DNA from: Caldicellulosiruptor kronotskyensis 2002
GTDB lineage: Bacteria > Bacillota > Thermoanaerobacteria > Caldicellulosiruptorales > Caldicellulosiruptoraceae
Length of the DNA: 64,000 nt
Reading direction: 5' to 3'
Assembly: GCF_000166775.1 (NCBI RefSeq)
Contig: NC_014720.1
Coordinates: forward strand, 310,001-374,000
The position numbers and the translations under genes were made by a program. The notes below the pieces were generated by a model that saw only the letters and a list, made by a program, of their open reading frames with translations, did no database searches and was not told the origin of the DNA. This document shows, piece by piece, positions 55,096-62,694 of the stretch (the stretch's first letter is position 1; every line of letters starts with the position of its first letter).

Positions 55096-55113
55096 AGAGG
55101 GATAAATCCCTCT
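55096..55113 (-). terminator. Terminator after His-rich peptide gene
   Basis: AGAGGGAT-AA-ATCCCTCT is a perfect stem with a T-run on the minus strand; it overlaps the stop codon. Confidence 0.85.
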
Positions 55114-55333
55114 ACTTGTTCTCTTCACTTTTAGGTTTATCAAGTGCAACTAATTCTTCACTGTGGTGATGGTGATGGAACTGATGATCTTTGAAGTCAG
55201 ATGCTTTTTGGGTTTCATTGCTGTGGTGGTGGGCATGGCCGTGGCAACCTCTACCCATCATTGCTTTGTGCATAAAAATGTGTGCTAGCAAACATCCGCT
55301 CATTGCGAGAAGTATAAGCAGTGCCTCTTTCAT
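55112..55333 (-). CDS. Small His-rich membrane protein
   Basis: From ATG 55333 after AAGGGG the 73-residue protein has one hydrophobic segment (ALLILLAMSGCLLAHIFMH) and a His-rich tail: CHGHAHHHS and HQFHHHHHSEE. The tail is suited to bind metal ions such as copper, zinc or nickel. It is the last gene of the operon that includes CcdA and a remnant of a spermidine-synthase-like membrane protein. No family is recognised; the metal role is inference. Confidence 0.7.
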   Translation of the reverse strand: MKEALLILLAMSGCLLAHIFMHKAMMGRGCHGHAHHHSNETQKASDFKDHQFHHHHHSEELVALDKPKSEENK

Positions 55334-55356
55334 CCCTAAATTTCCCCTTCCCATTT

Positions 55357-56419
55357 TTATTTAGCAGTTACCAAATTTCTATTTTGTAAGCTTATAAGCC
55401 CATATAAAAGAGCTCCTGCAAGCATAGCAATGGTAAATCCAAACTCCATTGAAAGCATAATTGATAAAACTGAACCCACAACTGACATTACACCATTGAG
55501 TCCCCACATCATAGGAATTGTTTTGCTTTTCTTTTTATTTTCGCTTAATATCTTTATACCTCTTGGGAACGGCATTCCCATGAAAAAGCCTTGAATCATA
55601 ACCAGTATGGCTGCAATTAGTATTAGGTGCATTTGCTGTTCCATCAATTGTGACTATCATTTCATCGTTATCACCTTCTACTTTAACAACATCTGTTCGT
55701 GAAAATGCATTCCATTTGGTATATACAATCTTAGCTTTTTGGTTTGATTTTGCAATACTGCCAAGTGTTTTTGTTTTGTTTGTAATAAATCCGATGAAAT
55801 TCTGTTCAATTGAGTAAACGTACTTGTTTGGTATAAAAAGCCCAACCAAGAAAACAGCTAATACTCCCATACTAAGTAATATTTTCTTTTTAAACTGGGC
55901 ACTTATGATCAGCCAAGCTATGACTGAAATAATACAAATCAAAATTACAGACCGATATATTCCAAGATTGTTTAAAGAAAGTAACACAATTATGCTGCCA
56001 AATCCTGAACCTATGAGATCGGCAAAATATAGCTTGTTGCTTATTTTTCCAAACTGCTCAAATACAATAGAGAAAAAGTAACCACCTGCTACAAAAGGTA
56101 ATGTGGCCAGAATTAAATAAATCAATACGTTGTTTTGAAACGGCAATACATATATAATTCCCAGTGAAAATATGTACGAGATAGATAGAAGGAATAAGGC
56201 CTTAACCAATGAATTAGTTTTTAAATTTTCACTTTTTTGACGCTGATTGTAAGCTATTATTCCACCTATGCCAAGACCAAATATAGCAAATGATGTAATT
56301 AAAAAGGTATAATGATACCAAAATAAGGCAGAATATATTCGATTTAAAATGACCTGGTATATAAACAATGAAATTGATGCTAAGCTGATGACAACTAAAA
56401 TCACTTTTATTTCCTCCAT
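55357..56419 (-). pseudogene. Gutted spermidine-synthase-like membrane protein
   Basis: Two reading frames overlap at 55535-55647. The upstream frame (from 56419) encodes about 250 residues of multi-span membrane protein and ends in the segment VVKVEGDNDEMIVTIDGTANAP, which precedes the catalytic domain in membrane-bound spermidine-synthase-like proteins, then runs into out-of-frame sequence. The downstream frame encodes ILVMIQGFFMGMPFPRGIKIL plus two more spans, the usual C-terminus of the same family. The central SAM-binding domain is missing. An internal deletion with frameshift explains it. It lies 20 bp downstream of the ccdA-like gene. Confidence 0.7.
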
Positions 56420-56439
56420 TATTACAATTTTTGTATCTA

Positions 56440-57171
56440 TTACATTCCAAACGGCAATTTATAAGGTAGCAGTCTACTAAGAATTGCTGTTAAGTCCTGA
56501 AGTTTATTTAAAAACATCACAATGCCAAGGAAAATGAGTGTAGCTCCTGCAACTGCACAGATAGCATTTTGGAATTTCTTTGCCCTTTTTATAGCATTAA
56601 TCGCGTGGGGTAAATAATAACCAACAAGCAAATACGGTATTGCAAGACCTAAGGAAAATAATAACATGATTGTCATGCCTACAAAGGCACTTTTTGTGGT
56701 AGTGGTATATATCAATATGGAGTATAAAATTGGCCCGATGCAATGGGAACATACTATAGCGAAAAACAAACCTATTAAGAAAGTAGTAAAATATCTTGAT
56801 GATGTCTTGATGTTATCTGCACTATATTTATTCAAAAAAGAAAAATTTAGATTTAGCAGACCAATCAGATTTAATCCCATTATTATAGTTATTGCTCCAC
56901 CAATTTTGTTCATTATCGTGGTATAACCACTTAACCATCTGCCAATACTTCCTCCTAAAGCTCCTGCGATTGTAAAAACAAGTGTAAAGGCAGATACAAA
57001 TATAAAGGTATTTATGAGAATAAATTTCCTCATTTTTTTGTGAAGCTCTATATCCTTCAAATCTCTAATTGATACACCTGTGATTAATGAAAAATATACA
57101 CTTATCATTGGTATTATGCAGGGGGAAAAGAAAGATGCTAAGCCTGCTGCAGAAGGTAGTAAATAAGCCAC
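56440..57171 (-). CDS. CcdA-type cytochrome-c-biogenesis/thiol-electron transporter
   Basis: This 243-residue protein has six spans. The two redox cysteines appear as LASFFSPCIIPMIS near the start and IVCSHCIGPILYSI in the centre (the CxxC-like CSHC is unusual). It starts with GTG after AGGAGG. CcdA moves electrons from cytoplasmic thioredoxin across the membrane to extracytoplasmic thiol-disulfide proteins. It lies 13 bp after the secreted-domain protein gene and is followed by the broken spermidine-synthase-like gene, all on one strand. The substrate protein is not identified here. Confidence 0.9.
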   Translation of the reverse strand: MAYLLPSAAGLASFFSPCIIPMISVYFSLITGVSIRDLKDIELHKKMRKFILINTFIFVSAFTLVFTIAGALGGSIGRWLSGYTTIMNKIGGAITIIMGLNLIGLLNLNFSFLNKYSADNIKTSSRYFTTFLIGLFFAIVCSHCIGPILYSILIYTTTTKSAFVGMTIMLLFSLGLAIPYLLVGYYLPHAINAIKRAKKFQNAICAVAGATLIFLGIVMFLNKLQDLTAILSRLLPYKLPFGM

Positions 57172-57184
57172 TTTATAGATCCTC

Positions 57185-57721
57185 CTAATTTAAAAACTTC
57201 TTATCCCACCTATAAATTCTCGATTTGACACCTCCAATATTTTGTAACTCCAATTGGATATATTTGGTTTTAGGTGTAATAAGGTTTTTACCATTTATTT
57301 TTTTTGGTATTTTGATATATGCCATGACGTGATGCCCTGAACCCTCAATTCGCCATGTTGCTTTTTTAACTTTTATACCTTCACTTGTGGTAAACAATAT
57401 CTTTCCGCTAAGATTGAGTGTGGATAAATCAACTTGATGATTGTCAAAAAACACCTCAAATACAAGGTAATCTTTGTCATCTTTTATAGGATTTAGATAC
57501 CTCACTCCAATGGTGATTAAGCCTTCACTATTTATTATCAGAGGGTCCGGGGAATTGTTTTTGGAACTTGTACTTTGTTTCGAATCCTGTCGATAAATGG
57601 TTTTGGTCTGTGTATTACTTTGTTTCTTTTGCTGTGAGATTATAACTTGAGCATACAGCGAAGATACTACAAATGCAAAAAGTACAGCAGTCACAATTAT
57701 TCTTTTTGTCTTCTTGGTCAT
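57185..57721 (-). CDS. Secreted or anchored beta-rich protein of unknown function
   Basis: The ATG at 57721 follows AAAAGGGGAAATG; an upstream frame is open but poorly supported. The 178-residue protein has a basic N-terminus, a signal/anchor (RIIVTAVLFAFVVSSLYAQV), a Ser/Thr/Gln-rich linker, and a domain with strands (LITIGVRYLNP, DYLVFEVFFDNHQVDL, KATWRIEGSGHHVMAYIKI). I do not recognise a family. It is first in the operon with CcdA, so a partner for thiol chemistry is possible, but it has no cysteines in the mature part. Confidence 0.65.
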   Translation of the reverse strand: MTKKTKRIIVTAVLFAFVVSSLYAQVIISQQKKQSNTQTKTIYRQDSKQSTSSKNNSPDPLIINSEGLITIGVRYLNPIKDDKDYLVFEVFFDNHQVDLSTLNLSGKILFTTSEGIKVKKATWRIEGSGHHVMAYIKIPKKINGKNLITPKTKYIQLELQNIGGVKSRIYRWDKKFLN

Positions 57722-57872
57722 CAAAACATTTCCCCTTTTGCATTCTGACTTAGGATAAAAGAACATTTTTAAAGAGACAGTTTTTCTCATTAAATTTAAA
57801 GTAAACCTATTTATTTACTCGGAATTATTATATAAATTATTTTATCAGAGGTGATTTAAAAGTCAATTGACT

Positions 57873-57911
57873 TAACAAATTCTTTACAAATTCTTTGCAG
57901 TTTATTTACAC
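57873..57911 (+). promoter_or_regulatory. Four-box 11-bp-phased array (OmpR/PhoP-type site)
   Basis: TTAACA (57873), TTTACA (57884), TTTGCA (57895) and TTTACA (57906) start exactly 11 bp apart, two boxes sharing AATTC spacers. The layout matches PhoP/OmpR-family binding sites. It points toward the methyltransferase gene at 58027. A perfect palindrome, CCTTCAGCTGAAGG (57912-57925), follows directly. Only this array and palindrome are recognisable in the gap 57722-58026. Confidence 0.65.
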
Positions 57912-58026
57912 CTTCAGCTGAAGGAATATTGAACTTAAGTGTTTGTAAAGTGGTAGAATAATTTACGGAATGATTTCGGCAGCTTGAAAAGAATGGTAAG
58001 AATAGAGAAAGGAAAGGAGAAAATAT

Positions 58027-58650
58027 ATGAGAGACAAAACAGAGATAATCAGAAAAAGATATGATAGAGCTGCTAAATACTATGATGCAGTTGAAAGTAT
58101 GATGGAGAAGAAATGGTTTTCACAGTGGAGGAAGTTATTATTTAGCTTTGTCAAGGGACCTAAGGTTTTAGAAGTAGGTGTTGGAACAGGCAAAAATATG
58201 CCTTACTATAATCAAGATTGGGAGATGGTTGCAATTGATTTTAGCCCAAAGATGCTGGAAAGAGCTAAAGAAAGAGCTGCAAAATTAAACTTGCAAGTAG
58301 ACTTAAGACTTATGGATGTTCAGCATTTGGAATTAAGTGATAACTCTTTTGATACAGTTGTGACAGCCTGTGTATTTTGTTCAGTGCCAGATCCAATTTT
58401 AGGGTTGAAAGAGATTCGCAGGGTATTAAAAGGTGATGGAGTACTGGTAATGCTTGAACATGTTCGAAGCAAAAAAGAGCCAATAGGCAAAATAATGGAT
58501 ATGTTAAACCCCTTAGTTGTTGGCATTTATGGAGCTAATATAAATCGAAATACAGTGGAGAATGTTAAAAAAGCCGGGTTTGAGATAGTTGAGGAAAAGA
58601 ACTTGTTATCTGACATTGTGAAACTGATTATTGCAAAACCTATAAAATAA
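58027..58650 (+). CDS. Class I SAM-dependent methyltransferase (UbiE-like)
   Basis: This 207-residue protein has VLEVGVGTGKNMPYYN for motif I, VAIDFSPKMLERAKERA, DVQHLELSDNSFDTVVTACVFCSV, and EIRRVLKGDGVLVMLEHVRS, typical of the UbiE/phosphatidylethanolamine N-methyltransferase type. It starts with MRDKTEIIRKRYDRAAKYYDAVES after AAAGGAG. The substrate is unknown: a lipid, quinone or other small molecule. It is the first gene beyond the box array, so it may be part of the two-component regulon, and it is divergent from the CcdA operon. Confidence 0.9.
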   Translation: MRDKTEIIRKRYDRAAKYYDAVESMMEKKWFSQWRKLLFSFVKGPKVLEVGVGTGKNMPYYNQDWEMVAIDFSPKMLERAKERAAKLNLQVDLRLMDVQHLELSDNSFDTVVTACVFCSVPDPILGLKEIRRVLKGDGVLVMLEHVRSKKEPIGKIMDMLNPLVVGIYGANINRNTVENVKKAGFEIVEEKNLLSDIVKLIIAKPIK

Positions 58651-58714
58651 GGTGTTTAGTTGATTTTCCAACCCCAAAAATGGAATTGATAATGTGTGCC
58701 TGGTAGTAAAAAAC

Positions 58715-58745
58715 AGCCTGTCTGCCTTGTTTTTGCAGACAGGCT
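58715..58745 (-). terminator. Terminator for the DUF2680 gene
   Basis: AGCCTGTCTGC (58715-58725) pairs with GCAGACAGGCT (58735-58745); TTTTTT follows on the minus strand. Confidence 0.9.
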
Positions 58746-58759
58746 AAAAATATTTTCAT

Positions 58760-59305
58760 TTAGTATCCCATCATACCGCTAAAACCAGCACCCATCATGT
58801 TGCCATGTCCAATGCCCATCATGCCGCCGCCATGTCCAAAACCCATCATTCCACCAAAACCGTTGTTTGACCAATCTAAAATGTTATCAATGCAGTATTG
58901 AATGTTTGCCTGAAAATGCTTCTTTAAAAACTCAGCCTGCTCTTTTGTTATTTTTCCATCTTTCAAAAGTTTGTCAATTTCAGCAGCTCTTAAATCATAT
59001 AGCTTCTTTTTAAGGTCATCAACTGTTAATTTCTTTTCTTTTAAAATGTCGTTTATAGTTTGACCATTTTGTATTTTTTGGACAAGCTCATCAACCGAAA
59101 GACCCAGCGCTTTTGCAACAAGTTCCTGCATGTTTGTATGCAGCATAAACCCATATCCACAACCTGTATTTTGTTGCCATCCTGCTGCAGCATTTTTTGT
59201 CTTCTGCGTAGAACCTGGTTGAAGTCCTTTCGCAAATACAAATGTAAACGTCAGAACAAGTGCCAAGACTAAACCAATGCCTAAAATTGATTTTAGAATT
59301 TTCAT
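58760..59305 (-). CDS. DUF2680-type secreted protein with Met/His/Gly-rich tail
   Basis: From ATG 59305 after GGAGG the 181-residue protein has a signal peptide (ILGIGLVLALVLTFTFVFAKG), a helical DUF2680 core with a repeated VDELVQKIQNGQTINDILKEKKLTVDDLKKKL pattern, then a C-terminal FGGMMGFGHGGGMMGIGHGNMMGAGF tail. The Met and His spacing suits soft-metal binding (copper or silver), but this is inference. It is divergent from the two-component genes and carries its own four-box array upstream, so it is a likely target of that regulator. Confidence 0.85.
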   Translation of the reverse strand: MKILKSILGIGLVLALVLTFTFVFAKGLQPGSTQKTKNAAAGWQQNTGCGYGFMLHTNMQELVAKALGLSVDELVQKIQNGQTINDILKEKKLTVDDLKKKLYDLRAAEIDKLLKDGKITKEQAEFLKKHFQANIQYCIDNILDWSNNGFGGMMGFGHGGGMMGIGHGNMMGAGFSGMMGY

Positions 59306-59362
59306 TTCTATCAACCTCCATAAAGTCTTATTTGTTTTACATTTTATATGTTAAACTCTATT

Positions 59363-59401
59363 TGTAAGATGGGTATAAGCAAAGTGTAAAGAAATTGTAA
59401 A
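59363..59401 (-). promoter_or_regulatory. Second four-box 11-bp-phased array
   Basis: Read on the plus strand: TGTAAG (59363), TATAAG (59374), TGTAAA (59385) and TGTAAA (59396), exactly 11 bp apart; these are TTTACA-type boxes on the minus strand. The array lies 58 bp from the DUF2680 start and 64 bp from the response-regulator start, so it can control both. Confidence 0.65.
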
Positions 59402-59465
59402 GAATAATTTTAAGCTTAGCAAAAAGTCCATTAAAAAAGATATAATATTTAAGGGTGAGTGAAAA

Positions 59466-60131
59466 ATGGCAAATATCTTGGTTGTTGAAGACCAGCAGGA
59501 TTTGAATCAAATAATAACAAGATTTCTTAAAAATGATGGATTCAATGTTATAAACTCATACACTGCAAAAGATGCACTAAATAAGTTAAATGATGCTGAC
59601 TTGGTAATTCTTGATATTATGCTGCCTGACATGGAAGGGTATGAGGTATTGAAAGAAGCCAGCAAGAAAGGCATTCCAACAATAATTTTGACCTCAAAGT
59701 CAGAAGAGTTTGACAAACTAAAAGGTTTTGAACTTGGGGCAGAGGACTATATCACAAAACCATTTTCTATGCTTGAGCTGATTGCACGCGTAAAGGTTGT
59801 TCTGAGAAGAAACAGGAATTTTGAAGAAAGTATAAAACTTTTAGGTGGCAAGGTAGAGATTTTCCCCCAGAGGTTTAAGGTGATAGTAGATGGTGAGGAT
59901 GTGAACCTCACTCATAAAGAATTTGAGCTTTTGCTTTTCTTGGCTAAAAACAAAGATTTGGTAAAGTCAAGAGATGAGATACTTGAAAAGGTTTGGGGTT
60001 TTGATTTCATTGGTGAGACCAGAACTGTGGACGTTCATATAAAACAATTGAGAGAAAAGCTAAAAGACTACAAGTTTTTAATCAAGACAGTTTGGGGTGT
60101 GGGGTATAAACTTTCAGAAGAGAAAGAATAA
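59466..60131 (+). CDS. OmpR/PhoB-type response regulator
   Basis: This 221-residue protein has a receiver domain (ILVVEDQQDLNQII, phospho-Asp in DLVILDIMLPDMEGYEVL, Lys in EDYITKPFSMLELIARV) and a winged-helix domain (VNLTHKEFELLLFLAKN, SRDEILEKVWGFDFIGETRTVDVHIKQLREKLKD). The start is set by GGGTGAG. It lies directly before its histidine kinase gene. Its family binds 11-bp-phased boxes, as found in the two arrays nearby. Confidence 0.95.
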   Translation: MANILVVEDQQDLNQIITRFLKNDGFNVINSYTAKDALNKLNDADLVILDIMLPDMEGYEVLKEASKKGIPTIILTSKSEEFDKLKGFELGAEDYITKPFSMLELIARVKVVLRRNRNFEESIKLLGGKVEIFPQRFKVIVDGEDVNLTHKEFELLLFLAKNKDLVKSRDEILEKVWGFDFIGETRTVDVHIKQLREKLKDYKFLIKTVWGVGYKLSEEKE

Positions 60132-60152
60132 TTGAGAGGATGTAAGAGTAAG

Positions 60153-61424
60153 ATGAAACTTTTTACTAAAATAGCTTTAAACTTTATAGGAATAATAGTT
60201 TTTCTGGTTTTGAGCATATACATCTCAAATATGCTTTACCTTAAGTATTTTTTAGAGGATATGATTATTGATGATTTAAAAAAACTTTCCCAAGATGCGC
60301 TTGAAAACAAATTGGAAGGCGATTTGTCAGCAATGAAAATACTTATTTTACAAGGAAACACAATTGTGCTTGAAGAAGGCGGATTGGATCTTCCGTATCA
60401 CATGATTATGCCTGTATTCAATTCGACAGGAGTTTATGAATTTTCTCATCCACATCTTAAAGTTGAATATATTGCATACGTGTTGAAAAGAGGAGATTTT
60501 ACTTCTATTGCAATAACTACAAAACCATATTATGGATATGCATTAAATATAATATCAAAAAATTTAATTAAAATTAGCATTATTTTTATTTTAATCGGAC
60601 TTTTAGTATCGCTCTTGATCTCACGACATATTTCAAAGCGTATAATAAAAATTTCAGTTGCTACGCAAAAGATTGCTAAAGGCGAGGACTTTGAACTTAA
60701 AGACAACTCAACAGATGAAGTTGGAGACCTTGCAAGGTCCATCAATAGCCTTAAAAATTCATTGAGGCTTCTTGAGAGGGTAAGGCGAGAATTTGTTGCT
60801 AATTTTGTTCATGACTTGAAAACACCTATTGCTGTTATAAAAGGCTATTGTGAGAGCACAAAATATTTGGATATTAATGATAAAGAAAAAATTAAACAGA
60901 ATATGGATGGAATTGAAAAACAATGTGATTATATGCAAAACCTGATTTCCAATATGGTTGAGCTTTCAAAGATTTCAGCGGGGATAATTGAGAAAAAGAT
61001 AGAAGAAGTTGATGTTAATTTAGTAATCAAGCAATCATGCGAACAGCTCAAAAAGCTTGCTGAGATTGAAGATGTTGAGATTATTATCAAAAGCTTAAAT
61101 TCCCCAAAGATAAAGACTGACTTAAATTCATTTAGAAGAATAATAAACAACCTTCTGCAAAATGCAATTGAAAATACAAAGGATAAAAAAGTATATATCG
61201 AAACTGAGAGGGAGTATGTGGATATCTACAACAAGACAGACCTCAAAGAAGAGGAACTCATTTTTCTATTTGAAAGATACAAATCAAGCAGGAAAGGTTT
61301 TGGGCTGGGGCTGTCTATCGTGAAAGAACTCTGCAAGATTTTGGATATAAAACTTGAGACATTTATAGAGGATGGATATATTCATTTTAGAACGAAGTTA
61401 GAAAATACAAAATCATCTAGTTAG
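60153..61424 (+). CDS. Sensor histidine kinase of the OmpR-type system
   Basis: The ATG at 60153 is used; TTG 60132, directly after the previous stop, is an alternative. The 423-residue protein has an N-terminal span (IALNFIGIIVFLVLSIYI), an extracytoplasmic loop of about 110 residues, a second span (LIKISIIFILIGLLVSLLIS), a HAMP domain, HisKA with the phospho-His in FVHDLKTPIAVIKGY, and an ATPase with NNLLQNAIENTKD and GFGLGLSIVKEL. The loop has no recognised ligand domain, so the stimulus is unknown. It is operonic with the regulator and precedes a convergent MacB-type exporter cluster. Confidence 0.93.
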   Translation: MKLFTKIALNFIGIIVFLVLSIYISNMLYLKYFLEDMIIDDLKKLSQDALENKLEGDLSAMKILILQGNTIVLEEGGLDLPYHMIMPVFNSTGVYEFSHPHLKVEYIAYVLKRGDFTSIAITTKPYYGYALNIISKNLIKISIIFILIGLLVSLLISRHISKRIIKISVATQKIAKGEDFELKDNSTDEVGDLARSINSLKNSLRLLERVRREFVANFVHDLKTPIAVIKGYCESTKYLDINDKEKIKQNMDGIEKQCDYMQNLISNMVELSKISAGIIEKKIEEVDVNLVIKQSCEQLKKLAEIEDVEIIIKSLNSPKIKTDLNSFRRIINNLLQNAIENTKDKKVYIETEREYVDIYNKTDLKEEELIFLFERYKSSRKGFGLGLSIVKELCKILDIKLETFIEDGYIHFRTKLENTKSSS

Positions 61425-61430
61425 AAAACC

Positions 61431-61473
61431 CCTTTAAGCTGAAAAAAGCTATATTTTTATAGCTTAAAGGGGT
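61431..61473. terminator. Bidirectional terminator
   Basis: CCCCTTTAAGCT pairs with AGCTTAAAGGGG around an AT-rich loop. It lies between the kinase gene and the convergent exporter permease gene. Confidence 0.75.
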
Positions 61474-61485
61474 AATATTTGTTTT

Positions 61486-62694
61486 TCACTCATACCGCAG
61501 AGCAACGATTGGATCAAGCTGTGCTGCTCTTTTTGCAGGGTAAATCCCAAAGAAGATTCCAACAGCCGACGAGAACGCAAAAGCTATTAAAATTGTCTTC
61601 AACGATACAACAGGGGTAATTTGAATAAATGGGCCTACCAAATTTGCGAGAAGATAGCCCAAAAGTGTACCTATACTGCCGCCTATAAGAGATATCAAAA
61701 GTGCCTCAATTAAAAACTGTACCAGGATGTCTCTTTGTGTTGCACCGATTGCTTTTCTGATTCCTATCTCCCTCGTTCGTTCTGTCACAGCAACAAGCAT
61801 TATGTTCATAACTCCAATTCCGCCAACCACCAGAGATATTGCTGCGATTGCGCTCATTACAGTTGTAAAAATACCAAGTATCCTTTCAAATTGCTCCATG
61901 AAATTTACAAAGTTTTCTGTTTTATACTTGTCTTTGTTGTGATGTCTCAACTCTAAAAGTCTCACTACCTGAGATGTTGCCTCATCAAGCTGGTCTGAAT
62001 TGTAAGTCATTACGTAAATCTGTGAGATGGTCACATCATCAAATATCTTTTGTGCGTAGGTTATTGGCATTGCAGCAATAACAGGAAACTGATCAGCTGC
62101 AGCTCCGCCCAAAGCCCTGTAGCTACTGCTGTCTATCACACCAATTATCTTTGCGGTATCAAAGGATGTGGAAGACCCCACCTTTATGGTCTGACCAACA
62201 CAGTCTTCGTATCCAAATAGCTCTTTTGCCGACTCTCTATCAATCAAAACAACATTTCGACCAAGCAGGATATCTCTTTCGTTCAAAAATCTTCCGTATA
62301 CAATTTTCAAGTTTGAGACATTACCGTAGTCAAAGTCTGTTGCGATAAAAAGAGCTCTTTTGGTTCTTTTTCCAGACTTGACAAGTCCAAACTTTTGGGC
62401 AACTGGAGCCGCATACTTTACAGATGAAACTCTCTTTCGTATCATCTCAACATCTTTGACTGTGAGTCTGTCACTTTCGGTTATCTCCACATCTGTTCGT
62501 GGTCTGACAGAGAAAATATTCACGCCTATTTTTTCAAATTCGCCCAAAATGGCTGTCTTACCACCTTCACCCAGAGATACAATTGTTATCACAGAAGCGA
62601 TACCGATTATAATTCCCAACATGGTCAAAAATGTCCTCAGCTTATTTGAAAAAATGCTCTTTATTGCTACTTTGATAAGCTCTCTCATATACAT
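61486..62694 (-). CDS. MacB-type ABC exporter permease
   Basis: This 402-residue permease has an N-terminal span after KSIFSNKLRTFLTMLGIIIGIASVITIVSLGEGGK, an extracytoplasmic domain to about 275, and three C-terminal spans with the MacB signature GGIGVMNIMLVAVTERTREIGIRKAIGAT and IYPAKRAAQLDPIVALRYE. It starts at ATG 62694 or 62688 after GGGAG. It forms a complete tripartite set with the ATPase and adaptor genes on the same strand. Close to the paralogue at 30759. Substrates are typically peptides or lipids; not known here. Confidence 0.9.
   Translation of the reverse strand: MYMRELIKVAIKSIFSNKLRTFLTMLGIIIGIASVITIVSLGEGGKTAILGEFEKIGVNIFSVRPRTDVEITESDRLTVKDVEMIRKRVSSVKYAAPVAQKFGLVKSGKRTKRALFIATDFDYGNVSNLKIVYGRFLNERDILLGRNVVLIDRESAKELFGYEDCVGQTIKVGSSTSFDTAKIIGVIDSSSYRALGGAAADQFPVIAAMPITYAQKIFDDVTISQIYVMTYNSDQLDEATSQVVRLLELRHHNKDKYKTENFVNFMEQFERILGIFTTVMSAIAAISLVVGGIGVMNIMLVAVTERTREIGIRKAIGATQRDILVQFLIEALLISLIGGSIGTLLGYLLANLVGPFIQITPVVSLKTILIAFAFSSAVGIFFGIYPAKRAAQLDPIVALRYE

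Follow-up and report, generated by a model that had tools for sequence, protein, structure and literature searches.

A four-box array as a predicted OmpR/PhoB-type operator of a DUF2680 gene, and related promoters in the Bacillota

A tandem array of four hexamer boxes (array 2) is located in the window, that is, the whole 64-kb stretch of DNA that we analyzed (G000:C1:310001-374000 of a 2,843,785-base genome). The reading that best fits the sequence and setting of array 2 is an OmpR/PhoB-type operator that would contain two head-to-tail dimer sites and is placed like a Pho box. We consider it probable that array 2 is the operator at which the adjacent response regulator (RR1) mainly activates the divergent promoter of a DUF2680 gene, with RR1 also acting at a second site beside a CcdA-type operon (array 1) and at a third array that precedes the gene for a SHOCT-domain protein. 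The operator kind (OmpR/PhoB-type) was already known; the comparisons described below partly support the earlier idea of a regulon and add to it a third site and a promoter class that spans the phylum.

Array 2, its locus, and its distribution in the genus

A sequence-only reading of the window had described four boxes repeated every 11 bp, oriented inversely to a first array and shared by the DUF2680 and two-component genes (Table 1). The boxes were confirmed: on the + strand they start at 59363, 59374, 59385, and 59396, a spacing of exactly 11 bp (on the DUF2680 strand they read YTTACA or YTTATA), and the pattern of four TRTAAR hexamers separated by N5 spacers has its single zero-mismatch match in the window at array 2, compared with a mean of 0.01 expected in shuffled sequence with up to three mismatches allowed. 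The inverse orientation is correct, and the array is shared in the sense of geometry, that is, it is located in the divergent intergenic region of the DUF2680 and response regulator genes. Direct hexamer repeats with an 11-bp period and two or more half-sites, together with a nearby OmpR-family regulator that is codistributed with the arrays (among 12 genomes only), are features of an OmpR/PhoB-type tandem operator, and both are found here. Rfam gave no matches at window positions 56000-62000.

Table 1. Features of the locus (window coordinates)
Feature	Coordinates	Strand	Remarks
CcdA/DsbD-type membrane protein	56440..57171	-	PF02683, E 1.7e-20
Predicted secreted protein, first gene of CcdA-side operon	57185..57790	-	start may be 57721
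CcdA-side operon promoter TTGACT-16-TAAAAT	57839..57866	-	5 bp downstream of array 1
Array 1	57872..57910	-	TGTAAA/TGCAAA/TGTAAA/TGTTAA, 11-bp period
UbiE-like class I methyltransferase	58027..58650	+	
DUF2680 gene	58760..59305	-	PF10925, E 1.3e-7; signal peptide, helical core, Met/Gly/His-rich tail
DUF2680 promoter -10 TAACAT (predicted)	59348..59353	-	9 bp from gene-proximal box; phylum-wide 9-bp rule
Array 2	59363..59401	+	four 6-bp boxes TGTAAG/TATAAG/TGTAAA/TGTAAA, 11-bp period
RR1 promoter -10 TATAAT (predicted)	59441..59446	+	39 bp past last array 2 box
RR1, OmpR/PhoB-type response regulator	59466..60131	+	Response_reg + Trans_reg_C
Sensor histidine kinase	60156..61424	+	HAMP + HisKA + HATPase_c; short extracytoplasmic domain

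The DUF2680 gene is the predicted main target of array 2, and RR1 is its presumed cognate binder; when named relatives of RR1 were sought, only paralogues at 35-47% were found. The extracytoplasmic part of the kinase contains a conserved HMIMP segment and, in 6/7 genomes, an HPH segment; these are a possible metal-ligand site, which we take as a lead only. The secreted protein of the CcdA-side operon matched no Pfam family above the cut-off. Three reading frames at window positions 55112-56419 (55535-56419, 55357-55647, and 55678-55845) appear to be pieces of a single membrane protein split by a frameshift; a small His-rich protein (55112-55354) adjoins them. A longer DUF2680-related protein (308 aa) is encoded elsewhere in the genome (L144:1875-2801; G000:C1:2295874-2296800), where no clear upstream array is seen by eye.

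In the comparison of 12 genomes of the genus, RR1 orthologues with 92-100% identity are found in seven (G000, G001, G003, G004, G006, G008, and G011), and the methyltransferase is present in exactly the same seven. A pattern of four TGTAAR boxes (up to two mismatches) has 13 listed matches in the 12 genomes, every one in an RR1-bearing genome, and its reversed control has none; the strict four-box pattern is found in 6/7 genomes with RR1 and in 0/5 without it. Arrays 1 and 2 are confined to the RR1 genomes, so the earlier claim that the two belong together and follow the regulator holds, with the co-occurrence reflecting at most a few independent losses. The sequence-only reading had named the absence of the arrays from orthologous loci as an observation that would count against it; instead, array 2 is retained in six of the seven congeners with RR1 and is near-invariant in their alignment, while the DUF2680 proteins drop to 74-79% identity. 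In the seventh (G008), array 2 was lost together with the DUF2680 gene, and the reading frame of the kinase is broken. One genome (G006; L077:9607-9656) has a five-box array 2, having gained one exact 11-bp unit. Two others (G002, L142; G005, L143) lack orthologues of both RR1 and the methyltransferase and contain kinase remnants beside a spermidine-synthase-like gene, so the locus looks as it would after deletions.

Sites at the CcdA-side operon and at a SHOCT gene

Array 1, the inverse-oriented partner of array 2, differs from the four-box pattern by two mismatches. It is located 5 bp upstream of the -35 element of a well-formed promoter that reads along the CcdA strand, a position that would suit activation of that promoter from upstream, or its repression, and the CcdA operon is a plausible target. 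Array 1 breaks the 9-bp rule described below for both of its neighbors; for the methyltransferase, the -10-like site is ~43 bp away and the Pho-like 9-bp geometry is absent. In G008 and G011 (L078 and L079), a TnpB-type element is located inside the methyltransferase-proximal box (TTTAT/TTACA); because the element hits this box and the three CcdA-side boxes and the CcdA promoter are still in place, the CcdA side looks more constrained. We rejected the methyltransferase as the main target of array 1, since it lacks the 9-bp/-10 geometry and is separated from the array by the TnpB-type element in these two genomes; its case as any target is weak. A perfect 14-bp palindrome (AAGTCAATTGACTT) at window positions 57860-57873 covers the CcdA-side -35 element and touches array 1; it is invariant in the alignments of 6/7 genomes and nearly so in the seventh, and it is a possible second operator.

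The search for further arrays that the sequence-only reading had proposed yielded a third of the same design (G000 C1:2635501-2635554; L080), found by a search for the paired-box core combined with a search for a SHOCT-like protein beside one of the matches. This array precedes the gene for a small membrane protein with a SHOCT domain (PF09851, E 1.2e-10) and is upstream of that gene in all nine genomes that have the gene. The gene is also missing from G007, G009, and G010, that is, from the three genomes without any trace of the kinase. In G002 and G005, the SHOCT gene and its array are kept though RR1 is gone, which may reflect recent loss or another binder. The regulon had been described as local, which is incomplete (the third array is ~2.27 Mb from the window), and as comprising the methyltransferase, the secreted DUF2680 protein, perhaps the CcdA operon, and the regulator itself. 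The DUF2680 gene keeps its place strongly, given the phylum-wide promoter architecture, and the CcdA operon and the regulator plausibly; only the membership of the methyltransferase is weak.

Promoter geometry in the genus and across the Bacillota

Read on its own strand, the DUF2680 promoter is TTTACA-N5-TTTACA-N5-CTTATA-N5-CTTACA followed after 9 bp by TAACAT (a 4/6 match to TATAAT), without a recognizable -35 element; an alternative promoter, CTTACA-16-TAAAAT, ending at 59341, overlaps this reading. The SHOCT promoter is TTTACA-N5-TTTACA-N5-ATCATA-N5-TTCACA followed after 9 bp by TATTAT. With no mismatches allowed, the pattern YTTACA-N5-TTTACA-N16-YTNANA-N9-TANNNT occurs in the genus only at the DUF2680 and SHOCT promoters. 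With two mismatches, it also identifies TTAACA-N5-TTAACA boxes with a 9-bp spacing to TAAAAT upstream of a pstS-type gene and, at other loci, of pstB-phoU-type genes (gene names read from the translations); such four-box TTAACA arrays, with ~9 bp to the -10 element, precede pstS-type or pstB-phoU-type genes at L441, L442, L443, L444, and L446. We presume that these arrays mark the Pho regulon of the genus. Because TTAACA boxes, the 9-bp spacing, and the -10 element occur together at the pst/phoU genes, the phosphate promoters of this genome share the layout and differ in the box letter. Array 2 shares with the pst promoters of this genome the four boxes, the 9 bp, and the -10 element, that is, the layout only; its boxes are TTTACA and not the TTAACA of a PhoP regulon.

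A third box letter is found at a paralogous, divergently ordered pair of a second DUF2680 gene and a regulator-kinase pair (RR2) that is present in eight genomes. The intergenic region of this pair contains TTCACA-N5-TCCACA-N5-TTCACA-N5-TTCACA followed after 9 bp by TATATT, and the TTCACA-array pattern (up to three mismatches) has a single match in every one of the eight RR2 genomes and none in the other four. Thus, the box letters follow the regulons: TTAACA at pst/phoU, TTTACA at array 2, and TTCACA at the paralogous pair. In one genome (G009; L140), a transposase gene is located between RR2 and the TTCACA array, which stays with DUF2680.

These letters bear on the identity of the binder. 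The arrays could be bound mainly by another OmpR-type regulator, WalR or PhoP, with RR1 a bystander or minor contributor: the WalR consensus TGTWAH-N5-TGTWAH (PMC4168254) is matched by TGTAAA-N5-TGTAAA (distal boxes of array 2) and by TGTAAA-N5-TGTTAA (part of array 1), a fit that makes WalR a serious rival; this genome encodes a WalR-like and a PhoP-like regulator, recognition helices are nearly identical, and the SHOCT array is retained in two genomes from which RR1 is gone. However, arrays 1 and 2 vanish with RR1, even though the other regulators have close relatives throughout the genus, a distribution that argues against WalR; the pst/phoU promoters carry arrays with a different third base, and the TTCACA boxes of the paralogous pair are found only in the eight genomes with RR2. 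We regard binding mainly by WalR or PhoP as unlikely; adjacency and the codistribution of arrays 1 and 2 favor RR1 as the binder.

The same geometry is seen far beyond the genus. PF10925 (DUF2680) is found in 101/398 sampled Bacillota genomes, and we fetched 89 regions (80 from the Bacillota and nine from the class); 32 of these contain an OmpR-type regulator, in many cases adjoining DUF2680, either divergently or in tandem. Perfect pairs of TGTRAR boxes were counted in 97 upstream regions of DUF2680 genes: 18 have the 11-bp spacing, every one with the same orientation, and the ten other spacings, taken in both orientations, together give two; six perfect pairs are found at DUF2680 loci without a linked regulator. 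Twenty seed promoters were then picked on two boxes alone. In these, a further box at -22 is independently conserved, and 17/20 have a -10-like hexamer (4/6 or better) exactly 9 bp from the gene-proximal box. A position-weight model built from the seeds (1% false-positive threshold, 1.35) scores above threshold in 50/77 held-out DUF2680 promoters, including 34/55 without a linked regulator, as compared with 4/97 on the wrong strand and 5/230 promoters of other genes at the same loci; some of the seeds are closely related (L214-L218) and many loci are from related genera, so these counts are not of independent events. The model assigns scores of 19.9 to the DUF2680 promoter of the window, 49.2 to the SHOCT promoter, and 0.1 to the pstS promoter. 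On this evidence from upstream sequences, the four-box layout, found before approximately two thirds of the sampled DUF2680 relatives, looks like a conserved switch.

The phylum-wide pattern also bears on which gene array 2 serves. The array is located between both genes, with its TGTAAA boxes on the coding strand of the regulator, so it could primarily repress or tune the RR1 promoter, with DUF2680 a secondary target. Against this, the 9-bp/-10 geometry on the DUF2680 side is phylum-wide and includes DUF2680 genes without an adjacent regulator, the distance to the regulator -10 varies (39 bp for RR1, further in the paralogous pair), and the array parted from RR2 by a transposase gene remained with DUF2680; we judge this reading very unlikely. 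Autoregulation of RR1 is possible, although it draws no support from a fixed geometry because the distance from the array to the regulator -10 is variable. Finally, the view that the periodic boxes simply reflect AT-rich sequence or close relatedness is disfavored and can be given almost no weight: the genome is AT-rich and, in our genome-wide scans (done as pattern searches), three-box patterns with two mismatches are no commoner than reversed controls, that is, background, but four-box patterns give no control matches, and the signal appears again in distant genera, always with the same spacing and orientation, with matches in only 5/230 neighboring control promoters.

DUF2680 is a protein family without known function that receives a single passing mention in the literature searched. 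A promoter rule that ties most DUF2680 genes to OmpR-type regulators provides a first functional handle, that is, a regulatory identity for the family. The three box letters also form a set of natural variants, in which one base of the same layout apparently keeps apart related regulators whose recognition helices are nearly identical; this makes half-site specificity directly testable.

Proposed mechanism and comparison with known systems

The arrays, their 11-bp phase, their conservation, the 9-bp rule, and the co-occurrence are all read directly from sequence, and the binding of RR1, the direction of control, autoregulation, and the signal are inferences. PHO boxes are 11-nt direct repeats that are bound head-to-tail by OmpR-family regulators, and the Pho regulator is reported to interact with the sigma subunit in both Escherichia coli and Bacillus subtilis (PMC4415409). 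By analogy, the four 11-bp half-sites of array 2 would accommodate two RR1 dimers, arranged head-to-tail along one face of the helix. Bound RR1, 9 bp from the -10 element, would take over the role of a -35 in bringing RNA polymerase to the DUF2680 promoter; we propose recruitment because the 9-bp distance from the gene-proximal box to the -10 is that of the Pho-type promoters of this genome, and contact between activator and polymerase because the array adjoins the -10 and no -35 is present. Further predicted sites of RR1 action are array 1, immediately upstream of the -35 on the CcdA side, and the third array, before the SHOCT-domain membrane protein; RR1 may also tune its own promoter. The signal, at a guess, is cell-envelope or metal stress: the gene content (His/Met-rich proteins, CcdA, and the SHOCT protein) is suggestive of a metal or redox signal, nothing more, and a search for a metal-binding family among these proteins found none.

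The Pho boxes of the B. subtilis PhoPR and E. coli PhoBR systems share with array 2 the 11-bp direct repeats and head-to-tail binding by an OmpR-family regulator (PMC4415409). They differ in that the boxes are TTAACA there and TTTACA here (TTCACA in the paralogue and much of the phylum), the target here is DUF2680 and not phosphate uptake, and the kinase and regulator next to array 2 are a different pair from the one linked to pst. The WalR/VicR operators are also direct repeats, and their consensus (PMC4168254) is matched by several boxes in arrays 1 and 2; however, the arrays here have four boxes and are found in RR1 genomes only, and the WalR-like regulator is a separate gene.

The CpxP-CpxRA and ZraP-ZraSR systems of enterobacteria likewise place a secreted helical protein under two-component control, and cpxP-cpxRA is also divergent. 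The CpxR box is GTAAA-N4-8-GTAAA (PMC8964730). ZraR directly controls zraP and zraSR but differs from RR1 in being a sigma54-dependent regulator (PMC7657598), not OmpR-type. We do not claim that DUF2680 is a homologue of CpxP or ZraP: a whole-length profile match to ZraP (1.9e-7) covers the signal peptide and the Gly-rich tail and is lost with the helical core alone, PF07813 (CpxP/Spy/ZraP, LTXXQ) matches 2/24 DUF2680 members weakly (best E 0.0025), and a fold search with a low-confidence single-sequence model of DUF2680 (pLDDT 68.6) gave no PDB matches at E 0.001. The likeness of the DUF2680/two-component locus to these systems is one of arrangement. It is possible, though on balance doubtful, that DUF2680 proteins are Gram-positive functional counterparts of CpxP and ZraP, that is, secreted accessory proteins that would be made on demand by dedicated OmpR-type systems via a phylum-wide four-box promoter and would perhaps feed back on the kinase; in such a scheme, three parallel regulons of identical layout would be separated in a single genus by the third box base (TTaACA, TTtACA, or TTcACA).
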